64,000 nucleotides of DNA, taken from the NCBI GenBank assembly GCA_903859705.1, contig CAIONQ010000017.1, positions 62,001-126,000 on the forward strand, read 5' to 3'. The stretch comes from an uncultured Chthonomonas sp. (GTDB lineage Bacteria > Armatimonadota > Chthonomonadetes > Chthonomonadales > Chthonomonadaceae). Shown one piece after another: positions 29,140-39,544 of the stretch (position 1 is the stretch's first letter; every line of letters starts with the position of its first letter). The notes below the pieces were generated by a model that saw only the letters and a list, made by a program, of their open reading frames with translations, searched no databases and was not told the origin of the DNA. The translations under genes and the position numbers were made by a program.

Positions 29140-31188
29140 ATGTTTAAGCGCTGCCTTCCGTTGCTTCTAGCCACCGCCCCTATCGGATGCCTGGGAATAG
29201 CCCATGCCGATGGGGTTGGAGACAACAGTATCGAGAATGTACGGCACATTCCTCCTATTGGAGTAACCGTAACCGATTCGGACAGATCGGAACTGCAGGC
29301 CGGTCTAGCTTCGCTCAATGCTGTAATCGCCACCCTTAAGGCTACAAGTGCAGGCATAGTGCCCGGCCAGCCCGATCTTGTTCCAGATGTTGAAATCTAT
29401 GCCCGAGCGGTTAACTATGCACTTAATTTCAACGAGTTCTTCAACCCGGGCGAAATCCGTACTGCGAAGGCTCTTCTCAAACAGGGTACTGAGCGCGCCG
29501 AGCAACTTAAGGTAGGAAAGCCGACGTGGATACGTCAAACGGGTCCTATTGTTCGGGGCTATCGATCAAGAATTGACGGAACCGCTCAGCCATATGCCTT
29601 GATCGTTCCCACTGATTATGATTTCGACAAACGTTCTCCTCACCGAATCGATATCTGGTTTCATGGCAGAGGCGAAACGCTAAGCGAGGTCAACTTCATT
29701 AACGATGGCCAGCATTCCATGGGCGAGTTTGCTCCTGCCGGTGCATTTGTGCTTCGTCCCTATGGCCGCTACTGTAACCCCAGCCGCTTTGCTGGCGAAA
29801 CAGATACCTACGAAGCAATGGATGCCATTCGAAAAGCCTATGGCATAGATGATCACCGCGTAGCTGTAAGAGGTTTTTCTCTTGGCGGCGCAGCGTGTTG
29901 GGATTTTGCAACTCACTTTGCCGGCGATTGGGCCGCAACAAATCCGGGTGCAGGTTTTTCCGAAACGGCCGACTTCCTCAAAGTATTTCAGAACGAGAGC
30001 CTCCATCCATACTGGTTCGAGCAGAAGTTGTGGCACCTTTACGATGCCACTGATTACGCAATAAACCTTTTTAACGTGCCAACTGTGGCATACAGCGGCG
30101 AGCTCGATAGCCAGCGTCAGGCAGCCGAGATGATGGTTAAGGCTGCTACTGCCGAGGGGATAAGCTTTACACATATCATTGGCCCTGGAGCTCACCACTT
30201 CTATGAAAAGAATGCCAAGGCAGAAGTTGCTAAGCAGGTAGATTCCGCCGTTGCTGCGGGCCGGAATGATGCACCCAACGAAGTGCGGTTTACAACATGG
30301 ACTTTAAAGTACAACCGCATGAAGTGGGTAACCCTGGATGCTATGACCCACCATTGGTCTCGGGCGCGCATTAATGCCCAGGTTACCAATGCTGGGGCCA
30401 TTGCCGTTAAAACTGAAAATGCCGAGCAGTTTACGCTTAACCTGCCTGCATCACTTGCCGGCACGCGCGCTGGCGCGCCCTCATCCATATCGGTAGATGG
30501 GCAGTCAGTTAAGCTGGCTGCTGGAAAGAGCCAAAACGGTACCTGGACCATTCATATCCGGAAAGCTGGGCTTAACTGGATATCCTACCCCGGTGGCGCA
30601 CTCACCAGATTGGCGAAACTACACAATCACCAGGGGCCGATCGATGATGCATTTATGGATAGCTTCATCATGGTGGAGCCCACCGGTGTGCCACTTAACG
30701 AAACAACTGGTAAGTTTGCACAGCGCGAAATGAAGCATGCAATTGAACAATGGCGCCAGCAGTTCCGTGGCGATGCCATTGTCAAGAAGGACACAGAGAT
30801 TACCCCTGCAGATATCGCCAACAGCAACCTGATACTCTGGGGAGACCCAAAGTCCAACAAGGTGATTGCAAAACTGCTCTCGAGGCTACCACTCACCTGG
30901 AACAAGAGTACTGTTGCAATCGGGCAACATGCGCACTCTGCCGACTCCAACGTTCCGGTAATGATCTATCCAAACCCGTTAAACTATCGTAAATACATCG
31001 TGATTAACAGTGGATTTACGTACCGCGAGTACGATTACCTTAACAACGCACGCCAAACACCAAAGCTTCCAGACTGGGCCATTATAGATGCCTCTACTCC
31101 AGCAACATCTCGGTATCCAGGAAAGATCGTAGATGCAGACTTCTTTGGCGAACAGTGGGAAGTTACCGCCGGAACTAGTCACGACTAA
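29140..31188 (+). CDS. Secreted alpha/beta hydrolase with C-terminal domain of unknown function
   Basis: The 682-residue protein has a signal peptide of about 24 residues. A prolyl-oligopeptidase-like alpha/beta hydrolase domain (about residues 140-380) follows, with nucleophile Ser in RGFSLGGAAC, Asp in YSGELDSQ and His in GPGAHHFYEK. The rest (about 385-682) is a second region containing EITPADIANSNLILWGDP and RYPGKIVDADFFGEQWEV, found in a family of large exported hydrolases of environmental bacteria. The substrate is unknown, and ester or peptide hydrolysis are both possible. AGGAGA stands 12 nt from the ATG, somewhat far. It follows the MBL gene by 71 bp with no terminator visible, so co-transcription is plausible. 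Confidence 0.75.
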   Translation: MFKRCLPLLLATAPIGCLGIAHADGVGDNSIENVRHIPPIGVTVTDSDRSELQAGLASLNAVIATLKATSAGIVPGQPDLVPDVEIYARAVNYALNFNEFFNPGEIRTAKALLKQGTERAEQLKVGKPTWIRQTGPIVRGYRSRIDGTAQPYALIVPTDYDFDKRSPHRIDIWFHGRGETLSEVNFINDGQHSMGEFAPAGAFVLRPYGRYCNPSRFAGETDTYEAMDAIRKAYGIDDHRVAVRGFSLGGAACWDFATHFAGDWAATNPGAGFSETADFLKVFQNESLHPYWFEQKLWHLYDATDYAINLFNVPTVAYSGELDSQRQAAEMMVKAATAEGISFTHIIGPGAHHFYEKNAKAEVAKQVDSAVAAGRNDAPNEVRFTTWTLKYNRMKWVTLDAMTHHWSRARINAQVTNAGAIAVKTENAEQFTLNLPASLAGTRAGAPSSISVDGQSVKLAAGKSQNGTWTIHIRKAGLNWISYPGGALTRLAKLHNHQGPIDDAFMDSFIMVEPTGVPLNETTGKFAQREMKHAIEQWRQQFRGDAIVKKDTEITPADIANSNLILWGDPKSNKVIAKLLSRLPLTWNKSTVAIGQHAHSADSNVPVMIYPNPLNYRKYIVINSGFTYREYDYLNNARQTPKLPDWAIIDASTPATSRYPGKIVDADFFGEQWEVTAGTSHD

Positions 31189-31232: not shown

Positions 31233-31320
31233 AACTTAAGTTGATATGTGCACAGATTGCATTGAATTGACACCAATTTCAATGCAGGGCATAATGTGCA
31301 CATATCTCTGGAGTTAAGTT
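31233..31320. promoter_or_regulatory. Nested inverted-repeat operator region of the CDF exporter gene
   Basis: Three nested inverted repeats lie upstream of the CDF gene. The outer arms are AACTTAA 31233-31239 / TTAAGTT 31314-31320. The middle arms are a perfect 12 bp, GATATGTGCACA 31243-31254 / 31295-31306. The inner arms are TGCATTGAA 31258-31266 / TTCAATGCA 31278-31286. Each middle arm contains the palindrome TGTGCACA, 48 bp apart. The promoter boxes lie inside. A metal-responsive repressor or activator site is inferred. Confidence 0.7.
31267..31295 (+). promoter_or_regulatory. Sigma70-type promoter of the CDF exporter gene
   Basis: A perfect TTGACA at 31267-31272, a 17-nt spacer and CATAAT at 31290-31295. 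The -35 box sits in the loop between the inner arms, and the -10 box abuts the downstream TGTGCACA. The expected start site near 31302 leaves a leader of about 26 nt. Confidence 0.75.
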
Positions 31321-31328
31321 CGAACTAA

Positions 31329-37561: not shown

Positions 37562-39544
37562 ATGAATTTTAAGAGGACTTTCAACCTCGTCGCGATGTCG
37601 GGAGCATTTTTGCTCCCGACATTTTGCGCCATGGGTCAGCAGGATGCTGATGTAGTGCGCGCTGAAATGGCGCCTAAGAACGCCATTTTTCTGGAGACAC
37701 TTAACCTCAGCAATGTAATTCAGGACTGGGGCACTCCGGGCGTTGGCAAATCTGTTGATGGCAACCCAATAACACTTGGTGGCCAGGTATTTCGCCATGG
37801 TATTGGCACTCATGCTAAGAGCGAACTGGCACTCGATCTCAAAGGTGGCGCCAGGCGGTTCGTAGCGATGGTTGGCCTGGATGACGAACGCAAGGTTAGT
37901 AGCGGCACCGTAACCTTTCAGGTATTTGTTGATGGCAAGAAGGTAGCCGAATCCGGTGTAATGAAAGCTGGCCAGGCACCAAAACTTCTGTCTGTTGACC
38001 TTACTGGCGCTAAGCGCCTGCTGCTTGTTGTAGGTGATGCAGACGATGGCATCACAAACGATCATGCAGACTGGGCTGGCGCTGCCATTCTACTGAATGA
38101 TAATGCCCAGAAGCCAGTGACTGTTGGAGTTCCTGTTGAGCCAGCGCGTATCGCTCTGGTGGCATCTTCCCCAGTACCAGCAATTCATGGGCCACGCATT
38201 GTGGGCGGCACACCTGGCAAACCTTTTCTGTTCTTGATCCCGGCCACTGGTAAAGGGCCACTTAGCTTTTCTGCAAAGGGCTTGCCCGCCGGCTTATCGC
38301 TTAACCCTGGTACAGGAGTGATTGCAGGCACGGTAAAGGTGGCTGGCACTTACACAGTTCAGATTTCTGTAAAGGGTTCTGCGGGCGCAACTTCCCGTAA
38401 AATTACCATCGTTGGCGGAGAGCACAAGCTTGCGCTTACACCCCCTATGGGTTGGAACTCTTGGAACGTGTGGGCAGGTGAAGTTGATGATGCCAAGGTA
38501 CGTGCAGCGGCCGATGCAATGATTTCTAGCGGCCTCGCAGCACACGGCTTCCAGTACGTAAATATCGACGATACCTGGGAAGGCAACCGGGATGCCAGCG
38601 GCGAGATCCTGACTAACAACAAGTTCCCCGATATGAGGGCCACTTCAGACTATGTTCATAGCAAAGGGCTGAAGATTGGCATCTATTCCTCACCGGGGCC
38701 AAAAACCTGTGCTGGATTTGAAGCAAGCTACCAGCATGAGGTACAAGATGCTAACACGTACGCAAAGTGGGGAATCGATTACCTTAAACACGACTGGTGT
38801 TCTTATGGCGGCATTGCCAAAAACAATAGCCTGGAAGAGCTGAAGAAACCTTACGTTATCATGCGTGATGCGCTGTACAACTCTGGCCGCGACATCCTGT
38901 ATAGCCTTTGCCAGTACGGCATGGGAGACGTATGGACCTGGGGCACCGAGGTTGGCGGCAACTGTTGGCGCACAACCGGTGACATTAACGATAGCTGGGG
39001 AAGCCTTCGTGGCATTTACAGCAGCCAGGTTGGCCATGAGAAGTATGCAGGGCCAGGCCACTGGAATGATCCTGATATGCTGGTTGTTGGGGCAGTTGGC
39101 TGGGGCAATCCTCATCCGAGCCACCTTACGCCAAACGAACAGGTACTTCACATATCCATGTGGTGCTTGCTTTCGTCGCCGCTGCTAATCGGCTGCGATA
39201 TGGCCAAGATGGATCAGTTTACCGTTGCTTTGCTCTCTAACGATGAAGCACTGGATATCAACCAGGATCCACTGGGCAAGCCAGCCGGCAGAACATGGGA
39301 GAAGGAGGGACTGGAAGTATGGTCTCGAAAGCTCTTCGATGGTACTACCGCAGTCGGCCTTGTAAACAGCACCGTACAGGCTGCTAAAATCAACGCAGAC
39401 TGGAGCCTCCTTGGAGTTAAAGGGAGCCAACCAGTGCGTGATCTGTGGTTGCACAAGAACGTTGGCAGCTTCAGCGGCAGCTACTCTGTTGAAGTGCCGG
39501 CACATGGTTGTGTGCTATTGAAAATCGGTAAATCGAAAGAGTAG
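37562..39544 (+). CDS. Secreted GH27 alpha-galactosidase with NPCBM and Ig-like domains
   Basis: This 660-residue exported glycosidase has a signal peptide (about 25 residues) and an NPCBM domain (about 40-165, with GQVFRHGIGTHAKSE and LVVGDADDGITNDHADW). A putative Ig domain follows (about 195-285, with KGLPAGLSLNPGTGVIAGT), then the GH27 barrel (from about 290). The barrel has PPMGWNSWN, the nucleophile Asp in LKHDWCSYG near residue 409, and the acid/base Asp in TTGDINDSWG near 475. It releases terminal alpha-galactose from galactomannan, raffinose-type or pectic side chains. Some GH27 members act on beta-L-arabinopyranose, so specificity is not certain. It ends at a strong hairpin shared with the convergent SDR gene. 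Confidence 0.92.
   Translation: MNFKRTFNLVAMSGAFLLPTFCAMGQQDADVVRAEMAPKNAIFLETLNLSNVIQDWGTPGVGKSVDGNPITLGGQVFRHGIGTHAKSELALDLKGGARRFVAMVGLDDERKVSSGTVTFQVFVDGKKVAESGVMKAGQAPKLLSVDLTGAKRLLLVVGDADDGITNDHADWAGAAILLNDNAQKPVTVGVPVEPARIALVASSPVPAIHGPRIVGGTPGKPFLFLIPATGKGPLSFSAKGLPAGLSLNPGTGVIAGTVKVAGTYTVQISVKGSAGATSRKITIVGGEHKLALTPPMGWNSWNVWAGEVDDAKVRAAADAMISSGLAAHGFQYVNIDDTWEGNRDASGEILTNNKFPDMRATSDYVHSKGLKIGIYSSPGPKTCAGFEASYQHEVQDANTYAKWGIDYLKHDWCSYGGIAKNNSLEELKKPYVIMRDALYNSGRDILYSLCQYGMGDVWTWGTEVGGNCWRTTGDINDSWGSLRGIYSSQVGHEKYAGPGHWNDPDMLVVGAVGWGNPHPSHLTPNEQVLHISMWCLLSSPLLIGCDMAKMDQFTVALLSNDEALDINQDPLGKPAGRTWEKEGLEVWSRKLFDGTTAVGLVNSTVQAAKINADWSLLGVKGSQPVRDLWLHKNVGSFSGSYSVEVPAHGCVLLKIGKSKE

Follow-up and report, generated by a model that had tools for sequence, protein, structure and literature searches.

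The promoter of a CDF family metal exporter gene in an uncultured Chthonomonas sp. lies inside an inverted repeat that encloses a second one, and the best explanation for them is a compound repressor operator specific to this genome, a reading to which we assign a probability of about 0.5. The gene is located in the window (the whole analysed stretch of 64,000 nucleotides), on contig C17 of a 6.24-Mb genome. The candidate operator is a plausible new sequence of a known kind, which could be assigned to no named operator family. Metal sensing in Armatimonadota is little known, and the frequent scattering of related genes in this phylum means that neighbourhood does not lead to the regulators. 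A defined operator is a bait with which its regulator can be fished out.

The exporter belongs to the CDF family: its product matches Pfam Cation_efflux (1.2e-41) and ZT_dimer, both over cut-off. TIGR01297 is matched at 2.2e-79 and the ZitB model comes next at 2.7e-61, which is below its equivalog cut-off; judged by these scores, the protein appears closest to ZitB among named models. The HxxxD motif is present twice (HNFSD and HMMGD), in two membrane segments, and the termini are His-rich. From established knowledge of CDF motifs we take these features to point to zinc, and the gene is probably a zinc-export gene. Its start codon is identical in the orthologue from G001, the single same-genus genome compared. 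The co-directional S9-peptidase-like gene ends upstream of it, leaving 140 bp of intergenic sequence. The GGAG before the CDF gene is possibly its ribosome-binding site, though a poor one, 15 nt away.

The promoter, already recognised in the sequence-only reading, matches the sigma-70 consensus at 11 of 12 positions and has an optimal 17-bp spacer; such a promoter would be on absent a repressor. The two arms of a perfect 12-bp inverted repeat, GATATGTGCACA and TGTGCACATATC, enclose it and stand 40 bp apart. Both arms contain TGTGCACA, so the pair doubles as a direct repeat of one palindrome, and the cores are 48 bp from centre to centre, or about 4.6 helical turns. The earlier description of this pair as a perfect 12-bp repeat with a palindrome in each arm is accurate, and its "48 bp apart" is right for the cores and wrong as a gap. 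The downstream arm overlaps the -10 end and the predicted start site, again as first described. The 12-bp repeat encloses a perfect 9-bp repeat, TGCATTGAA/TTCAATGCA, which brackets the -35 box as had been claimed. Of the three nested repeats originally proposed, these two remain. The outer pair (AACTTAA at 31233-31239 and TTAAGTT at 31314-31320) has arms of 7 bp separated by 74 bp. It is weak and at chance level alone, and its bases make more sense as members of two self-contained flanking palindromes of 10 bp each, AACTTAAGTT and AGTTCGAACT. The repeats are only approximately concentric.

Table 1. Features of the exporter gene and its upstream region (positions in the window; a dot marks features without strand).
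Feature	Position	Strand	Basis or remark
S9-peptidase-like gene, upstream neighbour of the CDF gene	29140..31188	+	Co-directional; Pfam-based
10-bp palindrome AACTTAAGTT	31233..31242	.	Holds the left arm of the outer pair; significance doubtful
Upstream operator candidate GATATGTGCACA	31243..31254	.	Core palindrome TGTGCACA, 31247-31254
Inner dyad TGCATTGAA-N11-TTCAATGCA	31258..31286	.	Arms 31258-31266 and 31278-31286; covers the -35 box and most of the spacer
Sigma-70-type promoter TTGACA-17-CATAAT	31267..31295	+	-35 TTGACA 31267-31272; -10 CATAAT 31290-31295
Downstream operator candidate TGTGCACATATC	31295..31306	.	Core palindrome ATGTGCACAT, 31294-31303
GGAG, possible ribosome-binding site of the CDF gene	31310..31313	+	Sequence; some of its bases pair in the long fold
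10-bp palindrome AGTTCGAACT	31317..31326	.	Just before the CDF start codon; significance doubtful
ZitB-like CDF metal exporter of 327 aa	31329..32312	+	Pfam and TIGR01297 matches

In the proposed mechanism, a compound operator would control the strong sigma-70 promoter of a zinc-type CDF exporter. A dimeric repressor would recognise one palindrome, about ATATGTGCACATAT, in two copies, one on either side of the promoter, and by occupying the downstream copy, over the -10 end and the likely start site, it would keep RNA polymerase out. This regulator or a different one would find a second site in the 9-bp dyad over the -35 box. When metal is in excess, the repressor would be freed and the exporter made. 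A palindrome of its own in each 12-bp arm would be expected of two dimer sites and needless for an RNA stem, and the arms are placed where a repressor would interfere with polymerase. The 48-bp spacing puts the two sites on opposite helix faces, and a short loop joining them is thereby not favoured. Repressors of the ArsR/SmtB type are known to bind repeats over the -35 box, the -10 box or the start of metal-resistance genes (PMC8790569, PMC5658604), and the metal regulator AzuR is encoded far from its target (PMC8790569). In C. calidirosea, a member of the same family, genes usually grouped in operons are scattered (PMC4959169). The regulator here is probably encoded elsewhere in the genome.

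Comparison with known metal-regulator operators agrees with the initial statement that the site fits no ArsR/SmtB, Zur or MerR consensus, as the layout, box and spacer tests all failed. Like the operators of SmtB, ZiaR and AztR/AzuR at metal-exporter and metallothionein genes, which consist of one or two inverted repeats overlapping the promoter or start and whose repressor may be encoded elsewhere, the repeats overlap the -35 box, the -10 box and the start (promoter and start being predicted). Unlike ArsR/SmtB sites, which are imperfect 12-2-12 repeats with TGAA/TTCA-type halves, they are built from TGTGCACA palindromes that have no spacer, together with one 9-11-9 dyad. Around the two cores 8 of 13 and 6 of 13 pairs are formed, with a spacer of zero in place of the 12-2-12 layout; a consensus repeat of 6-2-6 layout would also have counted, and no TGAA..TTCA halves in an ArsR/SmtB layout occur in the sequence. 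A dyad at a metal-export promoter is also shared with MerR-family operators (ZntR, CueR). In MerR promoters, however, the -35 and -10 boxes stand 19-20 bp apart and the dyad lies between them; the present spacer measures 17 bp, and the inner dyad has its centre on the -35 box. No Zur box (7-1-7 palindrome or related) was seen on reading against the published consensus, which is actinobacterial. In Streptomyces coelicolor the promoter of zitB, encoding a ZitB-like exporter, is likewise under a metal regulator, Zur, with extended binding, but there a tGaNNatSatNNtCa box upstream of a weak promoter activates, while here the promoter is near consensus and no such box was seen (PMC5472717). Of five papers retrieved for TGTGCACA operators, none has a title or abstract that deals with a metal exporter.

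The sequence-only reading had made its case depend on conservation of the repeats upstream of orthologous CDF genes, and no such conservation emerged: the repeats recur neither in the one congener, nor elsewhere in the host genome, nor in any of 290 further genomes from the phylum. The orthologue in G001 is 70% identical and has another upstream neighbour. Its upstream region aligns with the present one no better than shuffles do and contains no comparable repeats; a TTGACG-17-CATAAT promoter can be read there. In the host genome no second site stands clearly above background (18 forward matches against 11 in the control), and none of the inspected matches is at a metal gene. The pattern TGTGCACA-N35-45-TGTGCACA is found in the host genome only and is absent from 290 other Armatimonadota genomes. 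DNA similarity searches with the repeat region returned nothing in 40 relatives, plasmids or phages, and an Rfam search gave no match. The lack of conservation speaks against an operator, and by its own terms against the original proposal, as far as one close relative decides, with a caveat that a single congener was compared and that operators diverge fast.

The same absence of conservation (G001, 40 relatives, 290 phylum genomes) favours the view that the palindromes arose neutrally or by chance in an AT-rich intergenic region and have no function. The finding was chosen by eye out of 64 kb, and the outer pair is at chance level. Four palindromes of at least 8 bp within 140 bp arose in 87 of 20,000 shuffles, and 463 kb of the 6.24-Mb host genome (the portion on which all background statistics were computed) contain 8 clusters with four such palindromes in 86 bp, so that palindrome density by itself is unremarkable. 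The nested repeats tell against this view. In 20,000 dinucleotide shuffles, the intergenic region yielded a repeat of at least 12 bp of any kind 15 times and one with a nested repeat of at least 9 bp never. Across the 463 kb only this site and one uninterrupted terminator-type hairpin at a gene end satisfy the nested definition, while five shuffles of the same sequence gave a mean of 1.6 long repeats and zero nested ones. The 12+9 nesting exceeds chance and is real, and a near-consensus promoter lies at the same place. A chance origin without function is somewhat unlikely; if it were true, it would be a reminder that single-genome repeat patterns need comparative support.

The repeats could also act in RNA, as an insulator against read-through. 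Transcripts from the upstream gene would form a long hairpin and hide part of the GGAG, and those from the internal promoter, without the left arm, would be translated. Some transposase genes are shielded in this way by hairpins against transcription that enters from outside. The peptidase-like gene points in the right direction, and any RNA reading through from it would contain the repeats. The repeat stretch folds strongly (-36.2 kcal/mol, z = -5.61, matched by no shuffle) with the GGAG partly paired, and the leader from the internal promoter by itself folds weakly (z = -0.56). However, after composition correction the fold ranks only about tenth in the 463 kb; about ten stretches fold as well or better, many of them hairpins at gene ends, where most of the better ones lie. 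The palindromes within the arms are not required by an RNA stem, no homologous sequence offers compensatory changes in its support, the read-through is putative, and the GGAG is poor and distant. Searches for a transposon-type read-through hairpin gave no usable match. The insulator is unlikely, and the first judgement, a DNA operator rather than a leader RNA, is kept as the best reading, though a fold at z = -5.6 allows a role in RNA. A remnant of a MITE-like palindromic mobile element that brought or trapped the promoter is very improbable: the long imperfect palindrome and the different neighbour of the G001 gene would suit it, but the sequence is single-copy in the host genome and absent from 40 relatives, with no plasmid or phage matches and no target duplication seen.

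In many other members of the family the gene before CDF encodes a membrane protein, and the two apparently form an operon. In three genomes of the sister genus g2 (L075, L076, L077) an invariant 20-nt sequence, CATGGTATATAATGTACCAA, lies a short way before the gene for a membrane protein of 242-245 aa, which in turn precedes CDF. It is a quasi-palindrome with TATAAT and the dyad TGGTA-N7-TACCA, and the surrounding bases differ, which makes it a candidate phylogenetic footprint of an operator in g2. Different from the present repeats in sequence and comparable to them in position, it mildly supports operators that change between genera at the exporter promoter. The broader proposal of an Armatimonadota metalloregulator of unrecognised specificity, bound to paired TGTGCACA and the -35 dyad, whose operators at this gene would be exchanged between genera, is doubtful.

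No regulator gene is adjacent to the exporter, a point from the initial description that holds for the ORFs surrounding the CDF gene. Beside the G001 exporter a divergent gene encodes a 157-aa protein that is helix-turn-helix-like by eye and has no Pfam match; it was rejected as the regulator because the host genome holds no homologue of it. The host genome contains 12 HTH_5 (ArsR-type) matches, none adjacent to CDF or linked to the site, and no matching site lies upstream of the ArsR genes inspected. One Fur-family gene was found (L121, contig C163 near 208797), followed by a 741-aa ORF that is probably katG, which makes a PerR/FurA type more likely than Zur. Upstream of this single fur gene, GCATTGGAATGCAGG resembles half of the inner dyad; the link was rejected, as the element is absent upstream of the G001 fur gene.

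Two further observations concern other loci. At L137 (C144:30000-36000) a 315-aa ArsR-type protein, possibly with a methyltransferase-like C-terminal part, is encoded divergently from a 475-aa gene resembling adenosylhomocysteinase, an arrangement similar to that known for SahR. Very stable hairpins are located around gene starts at 37572-37711 of the window and at L109:14952-15091, and may be leader or attenuator structures.
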